From NCBI GenBank assembly GCA_016192455.1, contig JACPUC010000001.1:242110-306109 (forward strand): a DNA stretch of 64,000 nt, read 5' to 3'. The notes below the pieces were generated by a model. That model had not been told where the DNA came from. It did no database searches and was given only the letters and a program-made list of their open reading frames with translations. The position numbers were made by a program, and so were the translations under genes. Below, piece after piece: positions 42,152 through 62,216 of the stretch. The stretch's first letter is position 1. Every line of letters starts with the position of its first letter. The DNA comes from Candidatus Tectimicrobiota bacterium (lineage in GTDB: Bacteria > JACPUC01).

Positions 42152-42208
42152 TCCGCAGATTACACAGATTGCACAGATTCAATCTGCGGAATCCGCGTAA
42201 TCTGCGGA
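42152..42208. repeat. Family A hairpin repeat, copy A1
   Basis: Outer arms TCCGCAGATTAC and GTAATCTGCGGA pair perfectly; the inner part repeats CAGATT. It fills the space between two phage genes, followed by AAGGGAA and the start of the fibre gene. Confidence 0.9.
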
Positions 42209-42216
42209 TTCCTTCC

Positions 42217-42414
42217 TTACCCTATCGCCGCGTTCTTCGCCTGCTGCCCGCGCACCCAGAATTGGCAGCACTCCGCCGAGCAGAAGCGCACGTTCTTCCA
42301 CTCCTGGCCGCCGGCCACCTTCACCTCGCGCATCTCAATGTCCGGCCCCTGATGCTTGAACGGCTTCTGGCAGCCGTCGCAGATGAACTTTTCAGGCTTC
42401 ACGGGCATGGTCAT
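42217..42414 (-). CDS. Small phage zinc-finger-like protein
   Basis: A 65-residue protein with CDGCQKPF near the N-terminus and RFCSAECCQFW near the C-terminus, a likely four-cysteine zinc site. The ATG at 42414 has GGAGGAG 5 bases upstream; this site is the edge of a family C repeat. Function unknown. Confidence 0.65.
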   Translation of the reverse strand: MTMPVKPEKFICDGCQKPFKHQGPDIEMREVKVAGGQEWKNVRFCSAECCQFWVRGQQAKNAAIG

Positions 42415-42418
42415 TGAA

Positions 42419-42542
42419 CTCCTCCTCCGCGCCCTCCGCGCCTCGGCGGTTGGTGCCGGCGCGGACGATGCACCGCGGAGACGCGGAGGACGCAGAGAGG
42501 GCGTAGCCTCTCGCATGATGCGGGCGGGACGCCCGCGCTCCT
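42419..42542. repeat. Family C hairpin with adjoining family E hairpin
   Basis: Family C arms CTCCGCGCCTC and CGCGGAGACGCGGAG (about 42424-42500), then a family E hairpin (42520-42542, GCGGGCGGGACGCCCGCGCT plus CC) two bases before the next gene's stop codon. Confidence 0.7.
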
Positions 42543-42543
42543 C

Positions 42544-42819
42544 CTAATCCAGATAGATCAGCGCCGTGCCCCCGCCGATGGTGGTGACGTAAATGCCGGT
42601 CACGGCGACGCCGCCGAGTTCGAAGCACAGAGTCGCGGGGTCGCCGGTGGCCCAGCGGGCTTGGAAGATGACGTTGCCCGCCACGGCGTCGTGGATGACC
42701 AGGGTGTTGCCGTTGGCGGCGCCGTCCCAGACGATGGCCTTGATGCGCGCGTGTTGGGTAGCAACCGAGGCGGCGGCTGTGGTTACGATGATTGGATTGG
42801 TGGTGAGAGTGTTGGCCAT
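42544..42819 (-). CDS. Phage protein, head/tail accessory
   Basis: A 91-residue beta-rich protein (IVWDGAANGNTLVIHDAVAG, GGVAVTGIYVTTIGGGTALI). The ATG at 42819 is chosen because the upstream frame has no family-like composition. Small proteins of this kind often decorate capsids or tails; no family is recognised. Confidence 0.6.
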   Translation of the reverse strand: MANTLTTNPIIVTTAAASVATQHARIKAIVWDGAANGNTLVIHDAVAGNVIFQARWATGDPATLCFELGGVAVTGIYVTTIGGGTALIYLD

Positions 42820-42946
42820 TGGTCGCTCCGGCGAGAGGCTCCGCCCTCGCTCTCCCCGCCAGGAAAGGTTGATCCCTGTAACCTGGCAGGGCGAGCCGCA
42901 CACGGCTCGCGGGAATCAGTGGAGGAGGCGATGCTCCTTCCTTAAA

Positions 42947-43008
42947 ACTACTGATGGACACAAATGAACACGGATATCAGTGTCTATCAGTGTTTATCCG
43001 TGGTTCCT
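42947..43008. repeat. Family B hairpin repeat, copy B3
   Basis: Arms around AACACGGATATCAGTG and TATCCGTGGTT. Lies between the hub gene stop and the 91-residue gene. Confidence 0.75.
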
Positions 43009-43079
43009 TCCGTTACGCCGCCCCCAGGACCGTCCATTCCACGTCCGCGCCCGGGCGTGGGGAGGAGCCCCGCCCATCC

Positions 43080-44687
43080 TCAGAAAAACTTGCTCCCCGG
43101 GAAGGTGGGGACGCCGGTGATCGTGCCGTTGTCCAGCGTCCAGTAGCCGGCCTGCTGCATCTGTTGCAGCGTCGAGGAGGCGGCCACAGGGTGCGAGTCC
43201 TCGACCCAGCGTCCGATGCTCGCCGCCGAGCGCACCGTCAGCGCCGAGAGCCGCACCAGCCGCCGCTTGAACTCGCGCATGGTCTTGCGCGCGTTCGCCA
43301 GCAGGCTGGAGAGCGTGCCCGCGGTGACGCTGATCAAGTCCGCCACCTCGGCGTCGAAATCCGGCGTCTCGAAGCTGACCACCTCCGGCGGCCCGGCAAA
43401 GAGGAGCAACAGGCGCTGCGCCAGGGTCTGCGCGTCGGTGTCGTCGGCGATGATGGTGAACTGCACGCTGCGGGCGACCGTGGCGCCGGCCTCCGTCACC
43501 GCGGCGGAGTCCGTCACCACGCCGCTCTTGCTGAAGTTCTTGGTGCGCGGGTCGTAGGCGTAGGCGTACTGAATCTCGTTCACATACTCCTGGTTGGGAT
43601 CGACCCGCAGCTCGAAAGAGCCGGCGGCGATGTTCACGCCCTCCTCGTAGAGCGCCGCTGTTCCCGGAAACCCAGGCACGAACCAGGTCGGAGTGTAGAG
43701 GTTGTCCGCGATCCGCAGGTCCATCCCCACCTCGTTCGCCAGGCGGGAGATGTAGTACTCGGCGGCGCGCTCCTCGGTGATGTACCAGCGCGCGGCGAGG
43801 TCGGCGAGGTCGGTGTCGAGTTGCGTGAACGCCAAGCTGTCCAGCGCCCCGGCCCCCAGCCCCACGACGTTCGCCAGCAGGTCGTCAAGCACGTCGCTGG
43901 GGTTCATCAGCAGCGTTCCGCCGCCCGCCTTCCCCTCGCACTTCACGTAAACGCGGTCCGTCTCCGGGTCGTAGGCGGTGATGCGGAACGTCGCCGCCGT
44001 CAGGTTCTCGTTGGTGTGGCTGACGTTGGCGATGCCGGTGCCGTTGCCGGGGTCCTTGCCGACCTGCGCGATTGAGAAGATGGCATGATCGGCGATCTTG
44101 AATTCGTTCACGGTGGTGTCGGTGCAGGTGAGCGGTCCCACCCAAACGCTCGACCAGTCGCCGTAGAGGAGCGGGATGCGCCGCGACGCGCCGCCGTCCT
44201 CCAGATTTGGGTAGGTCGTCGTGTTGAAGAGCGTCGGCGGCATCGGCACGCTCAGCTCGCGCGCCCGCCGGTCCTCGATCACCAGCTCCAGCGTGTCGAG
44301 GGTGCGCTTGATGCCGTCCTTCAGCCGGATGCGCCCCTGGAAGACGGTCGAGTACTCAGAGAAGGTCAACCCCTCGCCGGCGCGGATGGTGACGCTGGTG
44401 TTGGGCCAGAAGTTCGAACTGCCGTCGATCGAGGAGTCGAAGAAGCCGGAGGTGGCGTCCGCCTGGATGTTGTCGAGGATGACCGTCACCGTTCCCTGGC
44501 GCTGGATCGGGCGCAGCAGGGTGGAGAGCTCCTCGGTGATCCCCTGCACGCCGGCGACGCGGCCCTCGTAGAAGTTACCGCCGACAAGCGGCGTATCCTC
44601 CGTGGCGTAGCGCAGCGTGCCGCTGGCCAGCTCGATGTCCACGAGCACCACGAGGCCGAGAGCGGTCTTGGTGAAGTCGGTGGCCAT
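43080..44687 (-). CDS. Phage tail protein, hub/baseplate-like
   Basis: A 535-residue protein. The N-terminal part (LVDIELASGTLRYATEDTPL, GITEELSTLLRPIQRQGTVT) resembles distal tail or hub proteins that join the tube to the tip; the C-terminal GRWVEDSHPVAASSTLQQMQ and the ETPDFDAEVADLISV strand region support a large beta-structured tail component. The exact role is inferred from size and position between endolysin and fibre genes. A family A hairpin ends 15 bases upstream of the ATG. Confidence 0.65.
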   Translation of the reverse strand: MATDFTKTALGLVVLVDIELASGTLRYATEDTPLVGGNFYEGRVAGVQGITEELSTLLRPIQRQGTVTVILDNIQADATSGFFDSSIDGSSNFWPNTSVTIRAGEGLTFSEYSTVFQGRIRLKDGIKRTLDTLELVIEDRRARELSVPMPPTLFNTTTYPNLEDGGASRRIPLLYGDWSSVWVGPLTCTDTTVNEFKIADHAIFSIAQVGKDPGNGTGIANVSHTNENLTAATFRITAYDPETDRVYVKCEGKAGGGTLLMNPSDVLDDLLANVVGLGAGALDSLAFTQLDTDLADLAARWYITEERAAEYYISRLANEVGMDLRIADNLYTPTWFVPGFPGTAALYEEGVNIAAGSFELRVDPNQEYVNEIQYAYAYDPRTKNFSKSGVVTDSAAVTEAGATVARSVQFTIIADDTDAQTLAQRLLLLFAGPPEVVSFETPDFDAEVADLISVTAGTLSSLLANARKTMREFKRRLVRLSALTVRSAASIGRWVEDSHPVAASSTLQQMQQAGYWTLDNGTITGVPTFPGSKFF

Positions 44688-44702
44688 TGGAGCCCTTGCT
44701 TC

Positions 44703-44759
44703 TCCGCAGATGACGCAGATTTCACAGATTCAATCCGCGTCATCTGAGTAATCTGCGGA
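44703..44759. repeat. Family A hairpin repeat, copy A2
   Basis: Arms TCCGCAGATGAC and GTAATCTGCGGA; followed by GCAAGGGCTCC and the hub-like gene start. Confidence 0.9.
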
Positions 44760-44884
44760 TTTCCTCGTGATCCCCTGCACGCAGGCAGGAGGCGCCGAGC
44801 GGATCATCGCCGCCGCGTTCTCCGCCTGCCTACCGCCTCAAGCGGAGCAGCGCAGGCAGGCGCCGCCGCGGTGGAGCCGAAGCG

Positions 44885-45316
44885 CTACGGCACGCCGGCG
44901 TAGAAGACGTGGCGGCCGAAGCGCAGGGTCGGCTCGCGGCCGCGCGCCCACTTGGGTCTGCGTCCGGCGGCATGGTAATGCGTCGCCCCGCCGATGAAAT
45001 CGCGCACCTCGCCGGCGAGGACGAGGCTGGCGGCATCGCGGCAGTCGGCCCAGACCAGCTCGGCGTCATGGAGCCAGGGATCAACGAGCAGAACGAATCC
45101 AGACGACTTGGGGTTGAAACAGGAGTACTGCGCTGGTTTGAGCATGATCTCGCGCAGGCTGTCTCCCCACCAGCGGTGCTGACCTGGCGGCGGGACGCGG
45201 TTGATCACGGAGAGGGCCACCGCGAGCTTGCCGCGCATCGACTCGCCGCGGGCTTCGCCCCAAATGAGGCGCGCCAGTAGGGTGGCGTCATCATCGCGGT
45301 CGAAGGGGCTGGTCAT
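44885..45316 (-). CDS. SleB/CwlJ-type cell-wall hydrolase (phage endolysin)
   Basis: A 143-residue Hydrolase_2 family protein. The signature LLARLIWGEARGESMRGKLA with the catalytic glutamate (Glu21), AVALSVINRV, and GATHYHA near residue 109 are characteristic. It would cleave peptidoglycan glycan strands during lysis. ACAGGAGAG stands before the ATG. No signal peptide, so release depends on the holin. Confidence 0.85.
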   Translation of the reverse strand: MTSPFDRDDDATLLARLIWGEARGESMRGKLAVALSVINRVPPPGQHRWWGDSLREIMLKPAQYSCFNPKSSGFVLLVDPWLHDAELVWADCRDAASLVLAGEVRDFIGGATHYHAAGRRPKWARGREPTLRFGRHVFYAGVP

Positions 45317-45397
45317 CCACTCTCCTGTGAGGCGCCGCCATGAGCTTCCTCCGGAAGCTGGGAGGCGAAGGTTGAAAGGAGAAAGGTGTGAAAACGA

Positions 45398-45455
45398 TCC
45401 GCAGATTTCGCGGATTGCGCAGATTCAATCTGTGTAAATCAGCGTAATCGGCGGA
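45398..45455. repeat. Family A hairpin repeat, copy A3
   Basis: Arms TCCGCAGATTTC and GTAATCGGCGGA. This copy lies 81 bases upstream of the endolysin start. The remaining gap to 45582 holds a pyrimidine-rich CTCTCC tract (45478-45560) and no gene. Confidence 0.85.
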
Positions 45456-45582
45456 CACTCAGAGAACAGAAGTCTTCATGCTCTCCTTCATGCTCTCCTT
45501 TCTCCTCTCTCCTCTCCTGAATCCGGCGGATTCGTGTCTGCTCTCTCCTCTCCCCTTACTCCTCTTCGGCCGCCATAGGCCG

Positions 45583-46452
45583 CTACGCCGCCTCCAGCAC
45601 GGTCCACTCGATGTCGGCGTAGTCGGCGACCTTCTTGCGCACCACCATATTTCCCTCGAGCTTGCCGTAGATCAGCTCGTTGAGGTCGCTCTCGGGGCGC
45701 GGGTTGATGAGGAGCTCTTGGTTGTTGCCGACGTTGAGGAACATCTCGCGGTGGTTCGCTAGGTCGGCGGCGGCAATGTTGCGAAAGCCGAGGGCGTAGC
45801 GATGAGCGCGGCGCTGCGTGCGGCGCATGGTCTGCACCACGCCTTCGAGCTGCACCTCCTCGCCGGGGTCGAGAATGTCGGCGGCGTAGTTGGCGAGGAG
45901 GAACCGCGTCGGCTCGACGTAGACGCCGCCGACCACGCGCCCCAGCTCGATGTAGCCGGCCGGGTTCGCGGCGTCGGCGATGTGAAAGAACCACCACTGG
46001 AACGACTGCGCGAAGTAGGCGACGCCGTTGAGATGGCGCGGCGGCAGTTCGGAGGCGGCTGCGCCGCTGGTGATGAGGCCGGCGGTGATGAAGGACGCGC
46101 CCGAGGCGCCGCCGCCGGTGTTGTTGTGAGTGAAGGTCGCCACCAGCGTCGCCACGCCGTTCCAGTCGCCGGCCGTATCGCCGAGGTTCGACGTGTGACC
46201 CCACAGCCGCACCGTCGCCGCGCTGGTGAGGTTGTGATGCAGGAAGGCCCAGGCTTTGAGCTGCGTGGCCGCGCCGAAATCGAACTTCAGCCAGGCCGCC
46301 GACTCATCGGCGAGGCGCGTCACCTTGCGGATGCGGGCATCTCGCACGTTCGCCACCGGGTACTGTGTGGCGTCGGTCGGGGTGGCTCCGGTCAGCGTGA
46401 CGCCGCCGGCGTCGGTGAGGAAGTTATGCAGGATGCGGATGTTCGTCGCCAT
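45583..46452 (-). CDS. Phage distal tail / carbohydrate-binding-like protein
   Basis: A 289-residue beta-rich protein. The N-terminal half (WLKFDFGAATQLKAWAFLHH, SAATVRLWG) resembles an F5/8 type C discoidin-like fold; the C-terminal half (VEPTRFLLANYAADILDPGE, ADIEWTVLEAA) is typical of distal tail proteins that follow the tape measure gene. Position between tape measure and endolysin supports a tail-tip role. A family A repeat ends 16 bases before the ATG. Confidence 0.65.
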   Translation of the reverse strand: MATNIRILHNFLTDAGGVTLTGATPTDATQYPVANVRDARIRKVTRLADESAAWLKFDFGAATQLKAWAFLHHNLTSAATVRLWGHTSNLGDTAGDWNGVATLVATFTHNNTGGGASGASFITAGLITSGAAASELPPRHLNGVAYFAQSFQWWFFHIADAANPAGYIELGRVVGGVYVEPTRFLLANYAADILDPGEEVQLEGVVQTMRRTQRRAHRYALGFRNIAAADLANHREMFLNVGNNQELLINPRPESDLNELIYGKLEGNMVVRKKVADYADIEWTVLEAA

Positions 46453-46468
46453 TATAAGTCCTTGAGTA

Positions 46469-46525
46469 TCCGCTGATTACACAGATTACGCAGATTCAAT
46501 CTGCGGCATCAGCGCAATCTGCGGA
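46469..46525. repeat. Family A hairpin repeat, copy A4
   Basis: Arms TCCGCTGATTAC and GCAATCTGCGGA. Fills the gap between two phage genes; followed by TCAAGGAC and the start. Confidence 0.88.
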
Positions 46526-46544
46526 TTCTCCTTCGTCCCTGCAT

Positions 46545-47038
46545 TCAACCGTTCTGCGGGCCTCGGCGGTGAACCTTGCCGCAGCATGGGCAGCGGGGCA
46601 CGTCGATCTTGCGCAGTTCGACGAGCAACTCCTGGCCGGCCCTGCGGCAATCGAGCTTCTCGAACCGGGCCCAGGTGTAGTGGGGGTATTTTTCGCCGAA
46701 GTACGTGCCGGGAATGCAGAAATCGAGCGTCTGCTCGGTCGGGAACCGTCTGTGCGTCGGGTCGGTGAAGCTGTTTTCCGTTTGCCAGAACCCGGTGCGG
46801 ACGTGCAGCAGGGCGCGCGGTTTCAGGAGCGATGGCACTCCTCGATGAAGGGCCAGAAGGCGCGCGGCGCGAGGTGCTCGATGATGTCGAGCGCCCACAT
46901 CTCCTCGGCTCGCTCGTCCGCGAAGGGCCAGGGGAACGATTCGAGGTCGAGGATGAGATCGGCGGCGCCGCACTGGCGGAAATCGACGCCCAGAGCGCCG
47001 GGGATCGCCAGGTTTCCGCAGCCGAGGTTGAGGTTCAT
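46545..47038 (-). pseudogene. Class I SAM-dependent methyltransferase, frameshifted
   Basis: Two overlapping frames together give one methyltransferase of about 160 residues. The first (from 47038) has the SAM-binding start NLGCGNLAIPGALGVDF and WALDIIEHLAPRAFWPFIEE. It ends in TGA right after CHRS, while the next frame continues LLKPRALLHVRTGFWQTEN, then DRRAGQELLVELRKIDVPRC-like sequence to 46545. One base appears to be missing near 46826. Phage-borne decoration or DNA-modifying methyltransferase; broken, or an assembly error. Confidence 0.7.
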
Positions 47039-47054
47039 GGCAAGCTCTTGGTTA

Positions 47055-47112
47055 TCCGCAGATTACACAGATTCCGCAGATTGAATCTGTGAAAATCGGC
47101 GCAATCTGCGGA
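47055..47112. repeat. Family A hairpin repeat, copy A5
   Basis: Arms TCCGCAGATTAC and GCAATCTGCGGA; ends 16 bases upstream of the methyltransferase start. Confidence 0.88.
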
Positions 47113-47198
47113 TCGTCTCCTACGAGCCATCGAGGCGCCGGTCGTCGCGGACAAAGAACTCGCCGCGGCTAGCTTCGCCCCTCACCCCCGCGAATTTA

Positions 47199-47262
47199 GA
47201 ACCACAGATGAACACGGATAAACACGGATAATCAGTGTCCATCAGTGTTTATCCGTGGTTCC
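47199..47262. repeat. Family B hairpin repeat, copy B4
   Basis: Arms GAACCACAGATGAACACGG and ATCCGTGGTTC; abuts the stop codon of the tape measure gene. Confidence 0.8.
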
Positions 47263-47263
47263 C

Positions 47264-50263
47264 TCATGACCCGTTGATCCGGCCGTCGGCGTCGACGAAG
47301 AGTTCGCCGCGGCGGCCCATCTCGATGATCAGGCGCTTCATGTGGTCGCGCGTCACCTCGGCGATGACTCGGCCGTCGGTGACGAGCTGGATCGTTTGGC
47401 GGTCGTTGATCTCGACATTGATGGGCGCGGGGCGTGAACCATTGCCGGCGGGCGTCACCTGCTCGCCGGCGTGGAGAAAGGCCAGGCCGGTGCGCGGCAT
47501 CACGCCGCCTTCCTGGAAGGAGGGGATGCCGCTGAATCCGAGGCTCTGCTGGCGAATGCGGATGAATGTGCCGATCACGTCGGCTCCGGCTCCCTGCGTC
47601 AGGAGGTTGCGGGCCTCGTTCTGAATTTGCTCCCAGATGGCTTGGTCGCGGGCCGAAAGGCCGCCCTGCGCTCCCTGCGCCGCGGCGAGCGATTGCGGCG
47701 ACGGCAGCCGCGCCTGGGCGGCGAGGTCGAGGACGCGGCTGAGCTCGGTAGGGAATCCGGCCAGCGCTCCGAGAGCGAGGGTGAGCTGGCTGAAATCGGG
47801 CAGCTCCGCGCGGGCGGCCTGTGCGATCTCCGCCGCCGTGGGCGGCTCGCGGCGCCCGGCGAAGAGCGTGTTCAGCTCGCCCAGGCGCGTCTCGATGAGG
47901 CCGAGCTGAGCCAACCTCTCCGTGTTCGTGTCGATGGCGCGCAGCAAGTCCGCCTGCTCGTTGAACCCCGCCGCGGCGATGGCCCGCACCTCCTCCAGCT
48001 TCGATTCCAGCGCCGCCCGCACGGCCTCCTGGGCCGCCACGAAAGAGCCGCCCATGCCCAGCTCGGCGAGGACCGCTTGGTTCGCGTCGATGATTTCCTG
48101 CTGCGCGCCGATTTGGGCCGCGAACGCGGCGTCGCTGATGTCGGCGAGGCCCTTCAGCTCGGCCACCATCTGATTCCGGCCTTCGCTGAACTCGTCGATG
48201 GTCAGGTCGGCGTTTTGCGATTGCAGTTCGAGGAGCTGCTGAAGAACATTGCGGCCCTGGCCGACGAGGGCGAGGGCGGTGTCCGGCTGGAGGTTTGGCG
48301 CGGCGAGGCGGACGGCGATGTCGGCGCGCTGGCCCATCAGGCGGGCCAGGCGGGCGGCGCGGGCCTCCTCCGGAAGCAGGCCGCGCAGGGACGCCTCGAA
48401 GGCTTGTTCCTCGATATCGGCGCGGGCGAGGCGCTGCTGACGGGTGAGGTCCTCGACGGCGCGGGAGGCGGCGGTGTTCTCCTGACGCAGGCGGTCGAGG
48501 ACGGAGGCGAAGCGCGTCGCGGCGCTGGTCAGACCCTCGAAGATGTTTTGCAGCCCCTCCGGCCCGGCGCCCGCGCCGCCCTCGGCAAGGACGCGGCTAA
48601 AGGCGGCGAAGCTCTCAAGGGCGCCCTTGATCTGCGCCTGGGCGGTGGGCGGGCGAAGCTGGAAGAGCGTGGCGCTCACTTCCTCGATGACTCCGGCGAA
48701 GCCCTGGGCCTGCGCGAAGGTGCGCGCCGTGAACCCCTCGGCGGCTTTCTGGAGGGTTTCAAGAAACTGCGCGAACTCCTCGTTAAAGGCCCGCACGCGG
48801 TCAAGGTCGCCGGGCGAGGCGAAGACGCGGAAAAGCTCGGCGATCTGTTCGAGGCCCTGGACAACCACGCTTCCAGCGCCCAGGGACTCCGCCGTCAGCC
48901 CATGCTCCGGCGCCTCGCGCCCGAAAGGAGTCGCGCCCGTGACCTCGAACCCGGCGCCGGCGAGGCGAGACAAGAAGAGCGAGCGCTGGAGGTCGGCGCG
49001 CTTGCCAAGTTGGGCGTCGCTGAAGATGCCCTCGTTGCCCACCGGCAGCTCGAAGCGGCGGTTCACCACGCCGGAGAAGAAGCTGGCGGGAAAGGCTCCG
49101 CTGGTCGCCACGGCGCGCACACCAGCCTCGCCGCCAAGAAGGCTCACCACCCCCTCGGCCACCGTGCCCGCCAACTCCCGCGTCGGGCCGAACAGACGGA
49201 GACGGTTGCGGGTGACGCCGGAGAAGCGCTCGATGCTGGCGGGCAGGCCTGCGAGGCCGCCCGCCAGGCTGCCCGCGGCGGCTCCGCCGAGTGGTCCCTG
49301 GGCGAGGGCGGCGAGGCCGGCGTTGACGCCCTGCAGCGTGCCGCGCAGGCCGGCGAAGGACTCCTCGAGGAGCTTCGCCTGGCGCTCCAGCTCCTTGGCG
49401 CGGCCGGACTTGCCAAAGAACGAGAACGCCAGGGCGCCGAGGCCGACAGCGATGCCGATGGGGCCGAGGATCGAGGCGGCGCCGGCGGCTCCCGCGCCCG
49501 CCGAAAGCGCCGCGTCCGCGGCCAGGCCGGAGGCGAATGCTGGCGTGGCGCCCAGCGCGGCGGAGGAAACGGCGGCGCCGCCGCCGATCCCCAGCAGCGA
49601 GCCGACGCTGCGCCCGAGGCCGAGGAGGTTAAAGGCCGGCGAGACGCCCGCGCTCCCGCCGCCGCCGGAGCCGAATGCGGGTGAGGCGCCCGTGCCCCCA
49701 AGGCGGCCGATGGCGCCGAAAATCCCTTGCACGCTGGAGAGCGATCCGAGAACCCGTCCAACGCCGCCGCCCACGTTGATGCCGAAGTTGCGCAGCAGAT
49801 TGACGATGTTGCCCAGCAGGCTCTGCATTGCTCCAAGCAGGCCAAGGCCGCGTTCCTGCTCGTCGTTGAGTTGCCGCATTTCGATGCTCGCCATTGCGGC
49901 GGCGCCCGCATACGTTCGCGTCCCCTCCTCAACCCCTTCAATGCTCTGCTGCAGCTCGTCGAACCGCTGAGCCGCCTGCTGGGGGGCGCGCATCGCCGCC
50001 AAGCGCTGCTCATATGCTCCGAGGGCGTCGCGCTGTTTCGTCACCTGCTGCGCCACCGCCGCCGCAGTCCTCCCCAGGAGTTCCTGTTGCTGCTGCATGG
50101 GAACGAGTGCGCTGGCGGCCTGCTCGCCGCGACCCGTCACGCGCTCGAGCGCCCGCTCCAGCGCCTCGAACGAGGCGCGCAAGCGCTGCACCGCCGGCTC
50201 CAAAGCCTGCGCCGCTCTGACAGCATCGTCGGTGGGGAAGTCACGGCTCGCTTCAGTATCCAT
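47264..50263 (-). CDS. Phage tail tape measure protein
   Basis: A 999-residue protein that sets tail length and is threaded through the tube. It is helical and Ala/Gln/Glu-rich with coiled-coil stretches (ALEPAVQRLRASFEALERAL, MQQQQELLGRTAAAVAQQVT), and has glycine/alanine-rich hydrophobic segments around residues 230-300 (LLGIGGGAAVSSAALGATPA, ILGPIGIAVGLGALAFSFFG), typical of tape measures. The ATG at 50263 is used; the frame is open to 50335. Tail assembly chaperone genes, which normally precede it, are not adjacent but 9.5 kb away at 59857-60620. Confidence 0.85.
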   Translation of the reverse strand: MDTEASRDFPTDDAVRAAQALEPAVQRLRASFEALERALERVTGRGEQAASALVPMQQQQELLGRTAAAVAQQVTKQRDALGAYEQRLAAMRAPQQAAQRFDELQQSIEGVEEGTRTYAGAAAMASIEMRQLNDEQERGLGLLGAMQSLLGNIVNLLRNFGINVGGGVGRVLGSLSSVQGIFGAIGRLGGTGASPAFGSGGGGSAGVSPAFNLLGLGRSVGSLLGIGGGAAVSSAALGATPAFASGLAADAALSAGAGAAGAASILGPIGIAVGLGALAFSFFGKSGRAKELERQAKLLEESFAGLRGTLQGVNAGLAALAQGPLGGAAAGSLAGGLAGLPASIERFSGVTRNRLRLFGPTRELAGTVAEGVVSLLGGEAGVRAVATSGAFPASFFSGVVNRRFELPVGNEGIFSDAQLGKRADLQRSLFLSRLAGAGFEVTGATPFGREAPEHGLTAESLGAGSVVVQGLEQIAELFRVFASPGDLDRVRAFNEEFAQFLETLQKAAEGFTARTFAQAQGFAGVIEEVSATLFQLRPPTAQAQIKGALESFAAFSRVLAEGGAGAGPEGLQNIFEGLTSAATRFASVLDRLRQENTAASRAVEDLTRQQRLARADIEEQAFEASLRGLLPEEARAARLARLMGQRADIAVRLAAPNLQPDTALALVGQGRNVLQQLLELQSQNADLTIDEFSEGRNQMVAELKGLADISDAAFAAQIGAQQEIIDANQAVLAELGMGGSFVAAQEAVRAALESKLEEVRAIAAAGFNEQADLLRAIDTNTERLAQLGLIETRLGELNTLFAGRREPPTAAEIAQAARAELPDFSQLTLALGALAGFPTELSRVLDLAAQARLPSPQSLAAAQGAQGGLSARDQAIWEQIQNEARNLLTQGAGADVIGTFIRIRQQSLGFSGIPSFQEGGVMPRTGLAFLHAGEQVTPAGNGSRPAPINVEINDRQTIQLVTDGRVIAEVTRDHMKRLIIEMGRRGELFVDADGRINGS

Positions 50264-50616: not shown

Positions 50617-50645
50617 TTGACAGGTGGGGTCCGCTGGCGTAGGCT
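50617..50645 (+). promoter_or_regulatory. Promoter of the MoxR-VWA genes
   Basis: TTGACA (50617-50622), 17 bases, TAGGCT (50640-50645), about 110 bases upstream of the MoxR gene. The gap 50264-50757 holds no recognised gene. Confidence 0.7.
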
Positions 50646-51741: not shown

Positions 51742-51763
51742 ACGAAAGGAGTACGAAAACCAG

Positions 51764-52796: not shown

Positions 52797-52819
52797 CTGC
52801 GGGCGAGGAATCATCTCCT

Positions 52820-53995: not shown

Positions 53996-54236
53996 TCCAC
54001 CTGCTCCCAGGCGGCGGCGGTCCTGGCGCTGGGCTGCCCGCGGGCGTCACCGTGGTTGACGAACCGGCGGGCGCGCTCACAGGGGGGGCATTCCCGCGGC
54101 GGTCGACGTGCCGCTTGGTCGGGGGGAATGTGCTCGACCGAGCGTGCCGGCTCCTTGTCCCGCCACCGCTGCTCAACCCCTCCGCCGGTCCGGTAAAACG
54201 CCAACGTCGCGACAGGCGGCAGGAAGGACGAGCCCC

Positions 54237-54674
54237 ATGGATCGACGCTTCACGCACGAGGTGCGGGTGCGCTGGCGGGATACCGACACGGCCTCGGAGG
54301 TCTTCTACCCGAACTACTTCGCCTTCGTGACCGATGCCGAGACCGAGTTCTTCCGCAGCCGCGGCCTGCCCCAGCAAGAGCTGATCCGCCGCTGCGGCAT
54401 TTACCTGCCGCGCGTCACCGTGCACGCGAGCTTTCGCGCCCGCACCCACTGGGATGATCTTCTGCAGGTGGCCATCTGGGTGGAGGAGCTGGCGGAGAAG
54501 CGCTACAAGCTGGGGTTCGAGATCACCCGGCAGGCGACGGGCGAGCTGGTCTCCGACGGCTACATCGTCAACGTTTGCGTGGATGCCGAGAAGCGCAAGA
54601 GCCGCCCCATCCCGGCTGAGATTCGCGACATCCTGCAGCCGCTCTGTCGGCCTCACGCGGTGCGGGCGAGCTGA
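54237..54674 (+). CDS. Acyl-CoA thioesterase, YbgC/FadM type
   Basis: A 145-residue hotdog-fold thioesterase. The signature VRWRDTDTASEVFYPNYFAF with the catalytic aspartate (Asp15 or Asp17) is near the N-terminus, and RARTHWDDLLQVAIWVEELA follows. Hydrolyses acyl- or aryl-CoA esters in the cytosol. AGGAAGG stands about 9 bases before the ATG. Confidence 0.9.
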   Translation: MDRRFTHEVRVRWRDTDTASEVFYPNYFAFVTDAETEFFRSRGLPQQELIRRCGIYLPRVTVHASFRARTHWDDLLQVAIWVEELAEKRYKLGFEITRQATGELVSDGYIVNVCVDAEKRKSRPIPAEIRDILQPLCRPHAVRAS

Positions 54675-54808
54675 GCCGGCATGATCGATGGGCAGACCTG
54701 GAGGGGCTGTGCTATCCTAGCCCGGCGCTGGGCCCGGCGCTGGAGAGGAGGGGTACGGCATGCTGCGTCGGCAAGCCGGCGCGCCACCGCCCGAGGATAG
54801 GCAGGCTG

Positions 54809-55846: not shown

Positions 55847-55947
55847 GTGCAGGGACGGGCCCAGACCCTCGCCGCGGCCGCGATTCCGCCCACCCAGCCG
55901 CCGCGGTTCGCTTGCAGGAGCGGCTCTGCCGCTCACACTGGGAACCC

Positions 55948-57687
55948 ATGCAGCCCCGCCATCATCGCACCGTCGAATGGGTGGTCCGCCGGCCCGACGC
56001 GGCGGTGGTGCAGCGTCTGACGCGAAGCCTGAAGATTCCCCCCTTGCTCGCCCTCCTCCTGCACAACCGCGACCTCGCCGACCTGAGCGAGGCGCGGCAC
56101 TTCCTTGCAGCCTCCCTCGATCACCTGCACAGCGCCGAGGAGCTGCCGGGCATGGAGCGCGCGGCGCAACGCCTCGCCGACGCGGTGCAGGGCGGCGAGC
56201 GCCTGGCGGTGTACGGCGACTACGACGTCGACGGCACCAGCGGCACCGCGCTCCTGGTGCGCTTCTTCCGCGAGCTCGGCGCGCCGGTGACCTACCACAT
56301 CCCAAGCCGCTTCGAGGCGGGGTATGGCCTCAACCTCGACGACGTGGAGCGGCTCATCAACGATGGCGCCCGGGTCCTCATCACCGTCGATTGCGGCACG
56401 ACCAACTACGCCGAGGTCGATCATGCCCAGGGCCGAGGGGTGGACGTCATCGTCGTCGATCACCACCACACCCCGAACCAGCCCCTGCGGGTGACGGCGC
56501 TCGTCAACCCCAAGCTCGCCGGCTGCAGCTACCCCTGGCCGCACCTCGCCAGCGTGGGCCTCTGCTTCAAGCTTGCCCACGCGGTGCGGCGCCTGCTCCA
56601 CCAGCGCGGCGTGAGCAAGCTGCCGAACCTGAAGCGCTCCCTCGACCTCGTGGCGCTCGGCACCATCGCCGACCTGGTGCCGTTGCGCGGGGAGAATCAC
56701 ACGCTCGTCCGGCATGGCCTGGAGGAGCTGACGCAGACAAAGAAGGTTGGCGTGCAGGCTCTCAAGGAGGTCAGCTTCCTCAGCGGCGAGACGATCAACA
56801 CCGGCCACGTCGGCTTCCGCCTGGCGCCGCGCCTGAATGCCGCGGGCCGCATGGAAGACGCGCGGCTGGCCGTCGAACTCATGCTCACCGAGGACCGCCG
56901 CCGCGCCGCCGAGCTGGCGGGGCAGCTTGACGCCTTGAATCGCAGCCGCCAGGAGACCCAGGAACAGATCGTCGAGGAGGCGCTCGTCCTCGCCGAGCAG
57001 CAGCTTGCGGCAACGGGCGGGCCGGGGCTCGTGGTGGCCTCGCAGGGCTGGCACATCGGCATCGTGGGGATCGTCGCGGCGCGCCTCGCGGAGACGTTCC
57101 ACCAGCCGACGCTCGTCATCGCCGTCGAGGGGGCGGAATGCCGCGGCTCCGGGCGCAGCGTCCAGGGGGTGGACCTCTACCGTGCCCTGAAAGAGTGCGA
57201 CGACCTCTTCACGAAGTTCGGCGGCCACACCCACGCGGTCGGCTTCTCGATGCCCGCCGGCTACCTCGACGGCTTGCAGCGGCGGTTCCGCAAAGCTGTC
57301 CTGGCGCAGGTGGGGGAGCAGCCGCCGGGCCCGAAGCTCGTCATCGACGCCGAGGTGGAGCTGGCGGCGCTCGACTTCGCCTTCGTCTCCTCCCTCGACC
57401 GCATGGCGCCGTTCGGCATCGACAACCCGGCGCCCGTCTTTTGCGCCCGCGGCGTGACGGTTCTCGGCGAGCCCCGCCTCATGGGCCGGGAGAAGCAGCA
57501 CGTGCGCCTGCAGGTCAAGCAGAACGCCACGGTCTCCGCCGCCGTCGGCTTCAACCTGGCGTCAAGCCTGCGGGGGTTTGACTGGCGCGGCCGTCGGGCC
57601 GATATCGTCTTTCGCCCCAACCTCAACACCTGGAACGGCACCACTCAGGTGCAGCTCCAGCTCCAGGATCTGCGGCCCGCGGAGTAA
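55948..57687 (+). CDS. recJ: Single-stranded-DNA exonuclease RecJ
   Basis: A 579-residue 5'-3' exonuclease used in recombination and mismatch repair. The DHH phosphoesterase motifs are visible: DYDVDGTSGT at residues 91-100, VDCGTTNY near 148 and DHHHTPNQP at 171-179. The DHHA1 domain shows GRSVQGVDLYRALKECDDLF with GGHTHAVGFSM. An OB-type C-terminal part follows. The ATG at 55948 is chosen; a TTG at 55912 is a less likely alternative. Confidence 0.95.
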   Translation: MQPRHHRTVEWVVRRPDAAVVQRLTRSLKIPPLLALLLHNRDLADLSEARHFLAASLDHLHSAEELPGMERAAQRLADAVQGGERLAVYGDYDVDGTSGTALLVRFFRELGAPVTYHIPSRFEAGYGLNLDDVERLINDGARVLITVDCGTTNYAEVDHAQGRGVDVIVVDHHHTPNQPLRVTALVNPKLAGCSYPWPHLASVGLCFKLAHAVRRLLHQRGVSKLPNLKRSLDLVALGTIADLVPLRGENHTLVRHGLEELTQTKKVGVQALKEVSFLSGETINTGHVGFRLAPRLNAAGRMEDARLAVELMLTEDRRRAAELAGQLDALNRSRQETQEQIVEEALVLAEQQLAATGGPGLVVASQGWHIGIVGIVAARLAETFHQPTLVIAVEGAECRGSGRSVQGVDLYRALKECDDLFTKFGGHTHAVGFSMPAGYLDGLQRRFRKAVLAQVGEQPPGPKLVIDAEVELAALDFAFVSSLDRMAPFGIDNPAPVFCARGVTVLGEPRLMGREKQHVRLQVKQNATVSAAVGFNLASSLRGFDWRGRRADIVFRPNLNTWNGTTQVQLQLQDLRPAE

Positions 57688-57756
57688 CCGCGCCGGCAGG
57701 CTATCCCCCGGACCTTCACCCACCGTTCACAGCTTATCTCCTACGTCCACATTCCT

Positions 57757-57987
57757 GTGAGCGACAAGGGCTCGGCCTGGCTCAGGAAGGACACCTGCGC
57801 GCCCTTCGACGGCGTGCTCACGACAGAGGGCGATGCGAAGTGGGCCGAGGCGGCATCAGAGGTAATAACGAAGCGGAGGTGGCAAGTACATGTTAGCCCA
57901 TCGGTAGATTCCTACGAGGAGGCATTCCTTCGAGAGGTGACGAGTAGGGCGCTCTGCCGATTGTATTTGCCCCAGGGGGGGTATTAG
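57757..57987 (+). CDS. Small ORF with phage-lysis-type motif (remnant?)
   Basis: A GTG-started 76-residue frame. It carries DKGSAWLRKDTCAPFDGVL, closely matching DKGWAWLTKDTPAPFDGVL in the remnant at 15.7 kb, and the upstream frame also reads ISYVHIPV against EYVSVRIPT there. Proteins with an APFDGVL-type motif occur in phage lysis modules (recollection). It lies between recJ and an AT-rich protease operon, away from other lysis genes. Probably a relic. The rest of the gap to 58133 shows no gene. Confidence 0.5.
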   Translation: MSDKGSAWLRKDTCAPFDGVLTTEGDAKWAEAASEVITKRRWQVHVSPSVDSYEEAFLREVTSRALCRLYLPQGGY

Positions 57988-58133
57988 GATGGCGCCCCCT
58001 GTATTTTTTGGTCTACTTTTGTGGCGTGGGGGGGGTGAAAACCCCGATTAGCCTCCACCCCAACCCAAGACCGATGAACACCGCCCGAATGACTATTTTT
58101 TCTCTGGATCGGCGCTTAATAACAAGGAGGCGA

Positions 58134-59132
58134 TTAACGGTGACGCTTTTTCCCCTTGGATTTTGATTTACTGCCACCTGTTCTAGGTCCATGTTGTTGG
58201 ACCATTATGCGAGCGAGTTTAATAAAAGCCTTTCCTTCATGATTTTCTATGATCTTCACCGCGTTCGTTCCTTGAAAGGTGTGTGTTGTGGCATGAAATA
58301 TTGAAAGGAAAATATCTTGCATGACTTGATCTTGTTCAAGATGTTCGATTTTCAGTCCCTGCTGTTCAAGCTCAGATCGTGGAATGTGTCTACTGTGAGT
58401 TTTCCAGTGACCATGGGAAGATAACCATTGTGCTATTTCTGCGGGTTTTGTTGTATACCTCTCTTCCGGAACATTCCGGAACATGTATGATGTTAGCCAA
58501 CGCTTAACTAATTCCTTGGAAAGTTCTATGGCTCGCTCGCATTGCAATAAGAGGTCCGGTCCATATTGTCCTAGCATCGGATACCAAGCTGCAAGGCTTG
58601 ACTGGTCGGTTGCACCTGAAAGAGCCTTATCAAATTGGTCGAGAATCGCTTGGGCAGGGACCATGCGCAATCCCAGCGGGGTGGGCAGGAGTAACTGTGG
58701 GTCAATCGGCCCCAAGAAAGAATGCTTGCCCATTACAATTATATCAGCAGCACAAGCAATCATGGTCGCCGCCGACATTGCAAGACTCGGAACAATAACC
58801 TTGATGTGATCAAACTTTGAACGTAAGTATGAGACTATTGCTTCCGCTACTGTCGGCGAGCCTCCCGGACTATGTAAAATAAGGTCGAGCTGAGTACCAG
58901 AAAGGCCGTGAAGAACCTCCATAAAGCCCTGTAAATCTTCCTCTGCTATAGATATAACATCAGGATCGATATGTGGATCTGGTTGCGTCCATTTGGTTGC
59001 GTAAAGAATAGTATTACGTTGGGAGTGCTCTTTTGCGCTTACAAGGTATCTTCGCCTCACTAGATCAAATTCGCTTCCGTCCCCTTTGTGGTTTTTTTGC
59101 AGCTCATTAAGTATCTCAGACCATGTTGGCAT
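58134..59132 (-). CDS. SDH/SppA-type serine protease (ClpP fold)
   Basis: A 332-residue protein of the serine dehydrogenase proteinase family. It shows LDLILHSPGGSPTVAEAIV for the oxyanion region, then VIVPSLAMSAATMIACAADI with the likely nucleophile serine (SAAT where SAGT is usual) and MGKHSFLGPIDPQL. The C-terminus is basic (GGSKSKSKGKKRHR), perhaps for nucleic-acid or membrane contact. Clearly AT-richer than its surroundings, which suggests transfer. It follows the small gene at 59147-59374 by 14 bases. Confidence 0.85.
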   Translation of the reverse strand: MPTWSEILNELQKNHKGDGSEFDLVRRRYLVSAKEHSQRNTILYATKWTQPDPHIDPDVISIAEEDLQGFMEVLHGLSGTQLDLILHSPGGSPTVAEAIVSYLRSKFDHIKVIVPSLAMSAATMIACAADIIVMGKHSFLGPIDPQLLLPTPLGLRMVPAQAILDQFDKALSGATDQSSLAAWYPMLGQYGPDLLLQCERAIELSKELVKRWLTSYMFRNVPEERYTTKPAEIAQWLSSHGHWKTHSRHIPRSELEQQGLKIEHLEQDQVMQDIFLSIFHATTHTFQGTNAVKIIENHEGKAFIKLARIMVQQHGPRTGGSKSKSKGKKRHR

Positions 59133-59146
59133 ACCTCCCCCTATGG

Positions 59147-59374
59147 CTATATGGGGTTAACCTGTGGTCCGGAAGAGCTTGAAGACGAGATATGTTGTTT
59201 TAGCCCAGAGACGCGACGATGCGTCATGGCAGCCGATTCTAGGGCTTGATATTGTCCATATACTTCAATCATCTCCTTTATCCCTGGTTGTTGCAGTGCC
59301 CGCCTGAGAATTTCGTTGGCCTTCTTTGCCCTCTCCCTCGGGGGAATTGTTCTTTCTTCAATGTCGCTTGCCAT
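59147..59374 (-). CDS. Small protein upstream of the serine protease
   Basis: A 75-residue helical protein (ERAKKANEILRRALQQPGIK) with a serine-rich tail. ATG 59374 is chosen for GGGGGA 8 bases upstream; 59431 and 59383 are alternatives. It is the first gene of a two-gene AT-rich operon with the protease and could be its regulator or substrate adaptor; that is conjecture. Confidence 0.55.
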   Translation of the reverse strand: MASDIEERTIPPRERAKKANEILRRALQQPGIKEMIEVYGQYQALESAAMTHRRVSGLKQHISSSSSSGPQVNPI

Positions 59375-59504
59375 TTTACGCATCCCCCTTTCACTGGGCA
59401 ATTTCTGCATCGCCAGGACACCCGCCCCCATCCACTGTGGTTCTCAGTCGCGCATCCAGCCTCCGCGCTCTTCGACTATGGACTGCCTCTACCACAAATC
59501 TGTG

Positions 59505-59673
59505 ACAATGTAAAGGCAATGTCAATGCCAGGCCCCCTCCACCGCGGTCCGCCAGCAGGAGCTATACTGCGTTACATAGCCAATCCGTTGAAATACTGGT
59601 GGTTACGGTCAGATCCTCATCTCGAGCGGGGAACCGTTTACATGCCGCCAACCACCCATTGTCTTTACATTGT
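59505..59673. repeat. Inverted-repeat pair, possible insertion-sequence remnant
   Basis: ACAATGTAAAGGCAATG (59505-59521) is matched with one mismatch by the complement of 59657-59673. The 135 bases between hold further TTACAT motifs and no gene. The pattern resembles terminal repeats of a deleted insertion sequence. Confidence 0.45.
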
Positions 59674-59856
59674 ACGCCTCCAACATCCTCTTGACTACCT
59701 CAATGACCGTGGCGCGTATTCTTGGAGGGGCTCATTGCAATTCCCGCACCATCTGGTAGAGCTGCCCATCCTCCTCCCGCCGGACCACCACCTGCTCCTC
59801 GCGGTGCTTCTTCTGCTCCTTAGGATAGAGCCTCAGCTCCCGCGTCCTTCGTTCCC

Positions 59857-60294
59857 CTACCGCCCCATCAACGCCTCACGACGGATCAGGCCAGGATTCG
59901 GTGAGCCAAACGCGCCGCAGCCCGCGCCGTCGCCAATGGCGCTCCCCTGCAAGCGACTCGTCTGCAGCCGGTGCATCTCCGCGATGAGGCGGAAACGCTG
60001 CGCCAGCACCCAGGCCTCGTCCTCGCCGAGGTCCAGGGGGTCGAGGGCGGTGGCCAGCTCGACGCCGAGGTGGTGGATGAGGTCGTAGCGCTCCCAGGCC
60101 TCCTGGTTGTCGTGGCTGAGGCGGACGATGCCGCGCGGCCCGAACTGAGCTTCGCATCCCTCGCAGTCGCGGAACCGGCCTCCCATCTGACGATCCAGCT
60201 CCTCGTCGGCCCGGCAGGCGGCGCAGCCGGCGAAGGCGGGGAAATCAAGACGGAAGGAGAGGTAGTCGGCCAGGTTGCGAAGCTCGGCGGCTAG
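59857..60294 (-). CDS. Tail assembly chaperone, frameshift extension (GpT-like part)
   Basis: A 145-codon frame in the -1 register relative to the upstream chaperone gene, with no start codon of its own near its beginning. It is entered at the slippery site 60300-60294 and reads LAAELRNLADYLSFRLDFPA, then a cysteine-rich part (AGCAACRADEELD, RDCEGCEAQFG) suggestive of a zinc site, and a helical C-terminus (AWVLAQRFRLIAEMHRLQTS). The fused product would be about 254 residues. An internal ATG at 60186 is possible but would lose the first third. Confidence 0.8.
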   Translation of the reverse strand, partial: LAAELRNLADYLSFRLDFPAFAGCAACRADEELDRQMGGRFRDCEGCEAQFGPRGIVRLSHDNQEAWERYDLIHHLGVELATALDPLDLGEDEAWVLAQRFRLIAEMHRLQTSRLQGSAIGDGAGCGAFGSPNPGLIRREALMGR

Positions 60295-60620
60295 TTTTTT
60301 TCCGCGCCCACCTCCGCCGCGTCGGTGGCCGAGATGGCGGTGATGACGCGCGTCACGGTGTCCGGCGGCAGATCGAGGAGCAGCTCGATGTTGAACGGCA
60401 CGGTCTCGCCGCGCTCATCAACAAAGCCGTACCAGTCCACCACGCAGGCGCGCAGGGTGTTCTCGGCCACCTGCGCCCAGTCGCAGACGCCGTTGCGGTC
60501 GGTGGCGCGGCGGATGAAGGCGTGCTGCTGCTTCTGGCTGAGGCGGCGATAGTAGACGCCCGCGTCGGACGCGAGGCTGAGCCTGAAGCGCTCGGTATCT
60601 TTGCGAATCGTGATCGGCAT
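60291..60620 (-). CDS. Tail assembly chaperone (GpG-like)
   Basis: A 109-residue protein between the tail tube gene and the frameshift extension, the lambda G / G-T position. It begins MPITIRKDTERFRLSLASDA and ends EVGAEKN followed by TAG. GGAGGAG lies 8 bases before the ATG at 60620. The last codons GAA AAA AAC form the slippery site. It binds the tape measure protein during tail assembly in known phages. Confidence 0.82.
   Translation of the reverse strand: MPITIRKDTERFRLSLASDAGVYYRRLSQKQQHAFIRRATDRNGVCDWAQVAENTLRACVVDWYGFVDERGETVPFNIELLLDLPPDTVTRVITAISATDAAEVGAEKN
60294..60300 (-). promoter_or_regulatory. -1 ribosomal frameshift site A-AAA-AAC
   Basis: Minus strand, in the chaperone frame: GAA AAA AAC TAG. 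The heptamer A-AAA-AAC fits X-XXY-YYZ; slipping back one base turns AAC TAG into CTA GCC and opens the 145-codon extension. Confidence 0.8.
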
Positions 60621-60643
60621 TGGATTCTCCTCCACCTGGATGG

Positions 60644-60702
60644 TCCGCGGATTACACAGATGACGCAGATGAGGAATCGGCGCAATCGGCGCAATCCGCG
60701 GA
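60644..60702. repeat. Family A hairpin repeat, copy A6
   Basis: Arms TCCGCGGATTAC and GCAATCCGCGGA; fills the gap between tail tube and chaperone genes. Confidence 0.88.
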
Positions 60703-60710
60703 CCCCTCGC

Positions 60711-61814
60711 TTACGCCGGGTTGGTCTGCACGCTGTTCAGGCGGTAGATGTATGGCGTTGCGGAGCTGGCGACCCGTGTGTTGCCAGCGTAGGCGCCGGC
60801 GTTGAATCGTTCGTCGAGGTTCGCCGGGGTGATGGCGGTGGCCGAGGCGGTGCAGATGAAGTCGAAGGGGTTGACGATGCGCCCCTGGCCGGCGGCGCGG
60901 GCGGCCTCGGTGGTGATCTGAAGCTGCGGGATGAGGAAGGCGACGGCGAGGTTCTCCGCGCCGATGGCGGCGCCGGTGAACCAGACGCTCATCATCATCA
61001 GGGTCTTGTTCAGGAAGGCGGTGCGGGTGTCGAGGGCGGAGGCGCCCTCCTCGGCGCCGCCCTGGCTGTAGACCGGGAAGCCGATGGAGCCGGTGACGCG
61101 GAACCGTCCGTCGCGGTGCGGCTCGTCGGTCAGGGTGGAGCGGCGGGTGGTGATGTCGCCGCGGAGGTTGTTCTCGATGCGCAGGGTGAACGAGTTGGGG
61201 TAGATGCGGTCGTCGGTGTCGAGCGGGCTGCCGGTGAGGGTTTGGGCGGCCATGCGCACGTCGAGGTGGCTGGCGAGGGCGAGGGTGGCCGCGTAGGTGG
61301 GGACGGCGCCGGTGGTTGGGAAGGCGGTGGAGCTGAGGGTGAGGTCGTCGCAGATGAGGCCCCAGGAGCAGCGCGGGCGCTGGCCGGCCTGCCAGGAGAG
61401 GTCGAGGGAGTTGACCTTGACGGAGGCATAGCTGTCGCGGTTGGCGCCTTTCTCGATGATGAGGGTGCCGAACAGGCCGTCGAGGTCGTCGAGGAGGACG
61501 AACTCGTTGTAGTAGACGCCGCTGGCGATGGCGCCGGGTGTGTTGGCGGTGCCCATGAGGAGATTGAAGAGGAGGTCGAGTCCCTCATAGGTGAGGTGGG
61601 TGTCGATGGTTCCCTCGAATCGTTCCTCGCCGATGTCGCCGCGGCGCTGCATGGCGCTGCCGGTAAGGGCCTCGTCCTCGAGGAGGGGGGCGGTGGAGGC
61701 GATGTTCTCGCCGGTGAGGTAGAGGGCGTCGGCCAGGGTGGGCGTGACCGCCGTGCCCCAGGTGGCGCCTTTCTTGAGTACGGCTTGCGCTTCAAACCCG
61801 TAGCCGATTGCCAT
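60711..61814 (-). CDS. Phage tail tube protein
   Basis: A 367-residue beta-rich protein with the major-tail-protein outline: MAIGYGFEAQAVLKKGATWG at the start, GSAMQRRGDIGEERFEGTID in the first third and NSFTLRIENNLRGDITTR in the second half. Its place directly upstream of the frameshifting chaperones fixes the role. ACAGGAGAC stands 8 bases before the ATG; a family A element lies just upstream. Confidence 0.78.
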   Translation of the reverse strand: MAIGYGFEAQAVLKKGATWGTAVTPTLADALYLTGENIASTAPLLEDEALTGSAMQRRGDIGEERFEGTIDTHLTYEGLDLLFNLLMGTANTPGAIASGVYYNEFVLLDDLDGLFGTLIIEKGANRDSYASVKVNSLDLSWQAGQRPRCSWGLICDDLTLSSTAFPTTGAVPTYAATLALASHLDVRMAAQTLTGSPLDTDDRIYPNSFTLRIENNLRGDITTRRSTLTDEPHRDGRFRVTGSIGFPVYSQGGAEEGASALDTRTAFLNKTLMMMSVWFTGAAIGAENLAVAFLIPQLQITTEAARAAGQGRIVNPFDFICTASATAITPANLDERFNAGAYAGNTRVASSATPYIYRLNSVQTNPA

Positions 61815-61837
61815 TGGAGTGTCTCCTGTTGAAGGAT

Positions 61838-61905
61838 TTCAATCGGTGTAATCGGCGTAATCTGTGGATGCCGATCTGTCCACAGATTGCGCAGATTGCG
61901 CAGAG
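61838..61905. repeat. Family A element, rearranged copy A7
   Basis: GTAATCTGTGGA (61857-61868) followed by TCCACAGATTGC (61879-61890): the arms are present with their order reversed compared with other copies. It overlaps the 3' end of the 101-residue gene. Confidence 0.75.
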
Positions 61906-62144
61906 GGCGCGGCGGCGGAGCCGCCGAGCGAGGAGAGCGTAGAGAGTGGAGAGGAGGAGTGCTGTTCTCCTTTCTCCTCTCTGCTCGCTCCTTTCTCGTC
62001 GCGCACAGGCGCGACGCGGCCCTGGCGGATGAGCAGTTCGCCGATGTCATCGGGCACCTCCTGGTCGCCGTCGAGGATGCTGATGGTGTGGTTGGTGCCA
62101 GGGATCGGTACGAGGAAGCTGCGGCCGCGGTGGCGGATGCGCAT
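61839..62144 (-). CDS. Small phage head-tail protein with repeat-derived tail
   Basis: A 101-residue protein. The first 45 residues (MRIRHRGRSFLVPIPGTNHT, GDQEVPDDIGELLIRQGRVA) look like a structured small phage protein; the rest (SSSPLSTLSSLGG, APSAQSAQSVDRSASTDYAD) is low-complexity, and its end is encoded by the family A element, so the original stop was probably lost or moved. ACAGGAGAC lies before the ATG. Confidence 0.6.
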   Translation of the reverse strand: MRIRHRGRSFLVPIPGTNHTISILDGDQEVPDDIGELLIRQGRVAPVRDEKGASREEKGEQHSSSPLSTLSSLGGSAAAPSAQSAQSVDRSASTDYADYTD

Positions 62145-62160
62145 GGCGTCTCCTGTTGGG

Positions 62161-62216
62161 TCCGCAGATTACGCAGATTGCGCAGATTCAATCGGCGTCA
62201 TCTGTGCAATCTGTGG
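62161..62216. repeat. Family A hairpin repeat, copy A8
   Basis: Begins TCCGCAGATTACGCAGATTG and ends CAATCTGTGGG. It lies 16 bases upstream of the small gene start and encodes the last codons of the glycosyltransferase (QIAQMTPIESAQSA). Confidence 0.88.

Follow-up and report, generated by a model that had tools for sequence, protein, structure and literature searches.

A dispersed inverted-repeat element at phage tail gene junctions is probably a gained REPIN- or MITE-like element rather than a gene leader

Most of what is known about short palindromic repeats comes from cultured bacteria. Repetitive extragenic palindromic (REP) sequences and REP doublets forming hairpins (REPINs) are pairs of short inverted repeats around a spacer and are mostly intergenic; they lie closer to the 3' end of the upstream gene than to the start of the downstream one, occur at co-directional or convergent over divergent junctions, may provide stop codons and may sit in frame within genes (Bertels & Rainey 2011, PMC3116915; Di Nocera et al. 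2013, PMC3733652). Rickettsia palindromic elements, which one of these papers mentions, are in-frame palindromic inserts within genes that add about 20 residues (PMC3733652). In Cluster K mycobacteriophages, start-associated sequences (SAS) and their extended form (ESAS) include inverted repeats whose spacer varies and which lie directly 5' of ribosome-binding sites. The SAS itself is a 13-bp asymmetric ribosome-binding-site repeat, GGGATAGGAGCCC, located 3-7 bp before starts; it is phage-specific, is found at non-structural genes and is retained alongside gene families in related phages (Pope et al. 2011, PMC3203893). Here we analysed a 64,000-nt stretch (the window) of contig JACPUC010000001.1 from a Candidatus Tectimicrobiota bacterium, whose phage tail region carries eight canonical copies and one degenerate copy of a repeat, family A (Table 1). 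A preliminary description made from the sequence alone had located all nine copies correctly and read them as a repeated 5' leader of phage structural genes. Our results suggest that family A is probably a dispersed inverted-repeat element, similar to REPINs and to miniature inverted-repeat transposable elements (MITEs), gained at tail-operon junctions, and not a dedicated gene leader. It is most likely an undescribed form among the known short inverted-repeat elements.

We compared the tail region with a syntenic viral contig, IMGVR_UViG_3300009285_006217 (L046, L293 and L294), with which it shares a glycosyltransferase (52% amino acid identity), a tail tube protein (51%) and the other genes so marked in Table 1. 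The repeat array was not found in L046 or L293, including at the orthologous genes. The matching junctions of the relative are mostly compact, from -13 to +9 nt, and its junction between the tail tube gene and the orthologue of the 60291 gene spans 58 nt and holds an unrelated GC hairpin. Relative to this contig, the glycosyltransferase of the window has a net 17-residue insert at a 58-bp repeat. Its C-terminus and stop codon come from the next repeat, where the genes of the relative overlap by 13 nt. Gain of the copies in the window phage lineage, after its split from the relative, is the most likely history; that the relative lost every copy and restored its gene overlaps is far less likely. 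Because copies are present in one phage and absent from the other at orthologous sites, and because one insertion is in frame, they may have spread by active mobilisation, through an enzyme that was not found. Copies would have been gained at compact junctions of the tail operon, and once within a gene. Insertions would survive mainly where they fall beyond the upstream stop codon, or in the final codons of that gene, and still 5' of the Shine-Dalgarno (SD) sequence that follows. Such survival would place the end of most copies 15-25 nt before an ATG, and this spacing would be due to selection preserving the SD sequence, not to a leader function.

The canonical copy is built of three forward 9-bp units with the core CRCNGAT, followed by three inverted units. 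The outermost unit starts with CC, the window copies have the ends TCC(G/A)C...G(C/T)GGA, and a spacer of between 0 and about 150 bp separates the arms. When as many as two mismatches were allowed, the arm motif TCCGCAGATTAC gave 27 matches compared to 3.5 expected from shuffles, and copies were at most about 90% identical to one another. A sister family shares the CRCNGAT core at 10-bp spacing, and in both families the arms pair head to head around a variable spacer. Folding revealed strong hairpins in every family A window copy (z -3.5 to -8.8; stems up to about 27 bp), in agreement with the preliminary description, and its statement that the repeats are not random intergenic debris is borne out by this defined inverted-repeat structure. 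An Rfam 15 scan of the whole window returned nothing at or above the gathering score. No U-tract was seen 3' of the hairpins, where the sense flanks read AGACAAGGG, GAAGCAAGGG and similar, and they are therefore not plain intrinsic terminators. Each gap between repeat and ATG holds an SD-like CAAGG, CAGGAG or GGAGGAG, much as had been described. The repeats had also been said to replace almost the entire intergenic space. This is true of the copies at 42152 and 60644, where the upstream stop codon is 8 nt away, and at 62161, where it lies inside the repeat, but not of those at 44703, 46469 and 47055, where it is 125-297 nt away. The SD-like AAGG or AGGA 5' of the window copies was considered as a duplicated leader and rejected. 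Instead, the outer flanks of host copies mirror each other, with an SD-like sequence on the 5' side in 13/24 and an anti-SD-like sequence on the 3' side in 13/24, which makes it more likely that the SD-like 5' flank prolongs the end of the element.

Within the window, the near-constant distance to start codons was confirmed: the gap to the ATG is 15-16 nt for five of the eight intergenic 9-bp copies and 23 nt for two copies, the earlier figures being about one higher through a counting convention. No tight distribution was observed genome-wide or in viral contigs. The host statistics cover 33 stretches picked because they bear the repeat, and the viral positions use gene calls from a simple self-trained gene finder. 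Among host elements between co-directional genes, 0/27 lay 15-16 nt from a start (median 138), and host junctions also included ten convergent and three divergent ones. The 289 viral elements comprised 242 between co-directional genes, 33 inside genes, six at convergent and eight at divergent junctions. The co-directional viral elements had a median distance of 16 nt from the upstream stop and 37 nt to the downstream start; the upstream stop was at most 12 nt away for 107 of them, 52 lay 10-24 nt before the start, and only eight (about 3%) lay at 15-16 nt, with 4/77 at compact junctions. In larger viral gaps, near-stop elements numbered 28 compared to 11.9 expected, and near-start elements 21 compared to 17.4. 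Distances within a viral contig were no more similar than those between contigs (p = 0.43). The preliminary description had named scattered distances, copies after stop codons and related phages lacking the repeat as observations that would speak against a leader. This is largely what was found, and a repeated 5' leader did not hold up as the general function, leaving the leader interpretation partly supported overall.

Left-right covariation was assessed on 43 palindromes of the 9-bp family, comparing left with right units against a shuffled control. The outermost units matched at the N position in 36/43 compared to 24.9 after shuffling (p < 0.0005), the second units showed no excess (22 vs 19.9), and the third units matched weakly (21 vs 17.2, p = 0.017). 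No left-right covariation was detected in the source-genome copies alone. In the alignment of the window copies, the unit C.C.GAT, not base pairs, sets the invariant columns, and a two-sided change occurs at only 1 of 22 pairs. The scant covariation of inner units argues against a selected RNA hairpin, and a requirement for the two ends to match each other fits the pattern better than a selected RNA stem. Conservation of the middle unit was strong but partly circular, the loci having been fetched with three-unit patterns; in a small unbiased check, the 10-bp family agreed (n = 10) and the 9-bp family was noisy (n = 8).

The source genome comprises 4.46 Mb in 31 contigs, and the window forms the end of contig C23. 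Genome-wide, the 9-bp family model gave about 16 strong matches, one of which (C2:309851) is actually a 10-bp copy, and eight of these matches fall within 21 kb of phage DNA (binomial about 1e-15 for 8/15). The earlier statement that family A occurs only in two phage modules therefore applies to the window and not to the genome, where other loci adjoin ordinary host genes, among them those for a thiolase, LepA, MnmE and AMP-binding enzymes. A search of the phylum returned the source genome alone, and the relatives compared are therefore distant. The three-unit motif was detected in 7/59 genomes sampled across bacteria, compared to none for the reversed control, and the strict palindrome was found in metagenome-assembled genomes of Anaerolineaceae and Ardenticatenaceae (Chloroflexota) and of Acidobacteria. 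Both families are present in more than 100 IMG/VR stretches each. The 57-bp repeat had no match among named phages and a single weak one among plasmids, in Gemmatirosa, and a literature search with the repeat sequence found nothing relevant. A broader suggestion, possible but doubtful, is that elements built of tandem CRCNGAT units, spaced 9 or 10 bp apart, form an undescribed class spread across bacterial phyla and their phages, which in some phages is targeted to the boundary between stop codon and SD sequence and has become the standard spacer of late operons.

Family A resembles REPINs as a pair of inverted short repeats around a spacer that is dispersed between genes: within 150 bp, arms in viral contigs were oriented '> <' in 87 pairs and '< >' in three, and 242/289 viral elements were intergenic between co-directional genes. 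It also lies near upstream stops, supplies a stop codon and has an in-frame intragenic copy. In contrast to REPs, its arms are tandem 9- or 10-bp units, the GTAG or CGTC tag at the hairpin foot is not present in the ends of the window copies, and no tyrosine transposase (Y1_Tnp) adjoins the arrays. The sole Y1_Tnp match of the source genome had no array within about 3 kb, giving no link to a REP-associated tyrosine transposase (RAYT), and in genome G040 an array was nearby at 1/15 examined Y1_Tnp places. With MITEs, family A shares small size, lack of coding sequence, a variable interior and terminal inverted repeats, as reflected in the matching outermost units; it differs in lacking a convincing target-site duplication. 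The element thus behaves like a REPIN or MITE, yet is assigned to neither class, because it showed neither the REP tag nor adjacency to a RAYT gene, and neither a target duplication nor an autonomous partner was found. It is like SAS/ESAS in having left and right repeats without RNA-stem-like covariation upstream of phage ribosome-binding sites, whereas it is located at structural genes, occurs in host genomes too and is absent from a related phage. The 13-bp SAS repeat was not found in the window spacers before ATGs, which share only the SD-like core. With Rickettsia palindromic elements, as far as they are described in the text of that paper, it has the in-frame insert in common, while differing in sequence and being mostly intergenic. 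Between the genes of phages, stem-loops are represented by the PeSLs (promoter early stem-loops) of T4-type phages, which are dispersed between genes, linked to gene shuffling and carry an early promoter; family A differs by occurring across host genomes.

Several points weigh against a gained, mobile element. The occupied/empty comparison depends on one relative, and gene starts rest on a simple gene finder. No convincing target-site duplication was seen among 74 palindromes, whose longest shared flanks equalled those of letter-shuffled controls, the single exception being one locus with a tandem duplication; an early signal had faded once base composition was controlled, and a 2-bp AT match at the CCGC ends may belong to the element itself. 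A candidate mobilising gene was not found, nor was an autonomous partner, where only Y1_Tnp was examined and no general search was made for transposases bounded by arms. Finally, five window copies at exactly 15-16 nt have a probability of about 2e-6 to 2e-5, by a test chosen post hoc. In a compact operon, insertions have to spare the upstream frame and the downstream SD sequence, so copies are expected to stop roughly 10-25 nt short of the ATG, a range that many viral elements occupy, but five at exactly 15-16 nt are not expected. This local regularity is statistically unusual, is not fully explained by gain at junctions, and is the strongest argument for a selected 5' leader, in which a hairpin 3-5 nt upstream of the SD sequence insulates or exposes it and so sets translation of late genes in this phage. 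The strong hairpins are in keeping with such a leader, as are phages L148 and L151, where several junctions are scarcely more than stop, element and start. We nevertheless consider it unlikely, since the relative lacks copies at the matching genes, the spacing is seen neither in host nor in other viral copies and does not cluster within contigs, the inner arms of the source-genome copies do not covary, and one copy is intragenic.

RNase III cuts between the early genes of T7, and the long, near-perfect stems between co-directional tail cistrons, with no U-tract on the sense strand, could likewise be transcript-processing sites. This is rather improbable given variable inner stem positions without compensatory change, copies between convergent host genes and within genes, and a relative that manages without them. 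More improbable again is that the repeats are linkers, that is, patches of homology for swapping gene cassettes between phages. The relative carries genes of 132 and 75 aa in the interval from the long tail gene to the 43080 gene; their places in the window are taken by the 46545-47038 gene and the cell wall hydrolase gene. Both of the cassettes that differ in the 43080-50263 stretch, at 46823-47038 and 44885-45316, are flanked by elements, and copies reach the identity noted above; however, the unswapped junctions from the glycosyltransferase gene to the 60291 gene carry elements too, and a single relative gives no contrast. The gene shuffling raised in the preliminary description is thus suggestive only. 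There is, lastly, a very small chance that the copies are sites for a DNA-binding protein recognising tandem CRCNGAT units. Constraint in the window alignment follows the unit and not pairing, unit spacing is near one helical turn, and the core is common to both spacings, but scattered positions, intragenic copies and spread across phyla suit an operator poorly, and part of the middle-unit conservation stems from the search patterns themselves. A dispersed REPIN- or MITE-like element gained at junctions thus remains the reading we prefer. It would extend short palindromic repeats to a unit-built type in phages and several phyla, with two related phages giving a clean occupied/empty contrast, and offers a testable case of intergenic palindromes entering compact phage operons. 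It also cautions that start-proximal repeats should not be taken for leaders without an outgroup.

Table 1. Repeat copies and phage genes in the window (positions in window coordinates; relative, the syntenic viral contig)
Feature	Position	Strand	Remarks
Family A, canonical (3 units + 3 inverted units)	42152..42208		ATG of gene 41056-42135 16 nt away; upstream stop 8 nt away
Family A, canonical	44703..44759		ATG of gene 43080-44687 15 nt away
Family A, canonical, pattern exception	45398..45455		mid-gap; hydrolase gene start 81 nt away
Family A, canonical	46469..46525		ATG of gene 45583-46452 16 nt away
Family A, canonical	47055..47112		ATG at 47038 16 nt away
Family A, canonical	60644..60702		ATG at 60620 23 nt away; 8 nt past tail tube stop
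Family A, degenerate, arm order reversed	about 61838..61900		overlaps 3' end of gene 61839-62144; ATG at 61814 23 nt away
Family A, canonical	62161..62217		ATG at 62144 16 nt away; codes last glycosyltransferase residues and stop
Family A, canonical, inside glycosyltransferase ORF (open reading frame)	62795..62852		read in frame; net 17-residue insert vs relative
Sister family, degenerate	28138..28198		outside phage modules
Sister family, left arm degenerate	42946..43006		
Sister family, complete	47201..47259		adjoins long tail gene stop
Sister-family arms around spacer holding unrelated palindrome	63249..63370		
Gene downstream of element 42152-42208, no family match	41056..42135	-	
Phage gene, phrog_8917 (unknown function)	43080..44687	-	86% to relative over 241 aa
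Cell wall hydrolase / endolysin	44885..45316	-	replaces 75-aa gene of relative; element on either side
Phage gene, phrog_8610	45583..46452	-	70% to relative
Frameshifted relative of L293:3027-3527 gene	46545..47038	-	different place in gene order; element on either side
Long tail protein, tape-measure-like by size and place	47264..50263	-	about 73% to relative
Phage gene downstream of tail tube gene	60291..60620	-	about 52% to relative
Phage tail tube protein (Phage_tube_2)	60711..61814	-	
Small gene between glycosyltransferase and tail tube	61839..62144	-	repeat overlaps its 3' end
Family 4 glycosyltransferase with in-frame element	62169..63221	-	

The gene at 46545-47038 is spread over two frames and is probably broken. 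The sister family is the commoner one genome-wide, with 203 two-unit matches compared to two for the reversed control. One of its elements contains a repeat nested in a repeat, the palindrome CCCTCACCCCGGCCCTCTCCCTGGGGGAGAGGG (window 63275-63325) lying within its spacer. A further intergenic palindrome, GTAGGGGCGGTTCGCGAACCGCCCCTAC, occurs four times (window 11616-11648, 16697-16729, 17925-17957 and 28209-28241), and one resembling it lies between genes near position 9600 of viral contig L148. Similarly built of tandem units, a third repeat, CGCGGAGGACGCGGAG, is found between two phage genes at window 42440-42500. Junctions of L148 (1-320 and 1608-1754) are filled by a separate type of intergenic repeat (GAGGAGCGAGAAGC...), and similar sequence is present at window 61925-62000. 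In L031, an ORF of 916 aa (3702-6452) that includes a DNA methylase domain has three repeat arrays within its open frame. In L027, a 369-bp block that includes a 9-bp-family element occurs twice, in inverted orientation and at 88% identity (3893-4252 and 9655-10022), indicating that whole intergenic blocks get copied.

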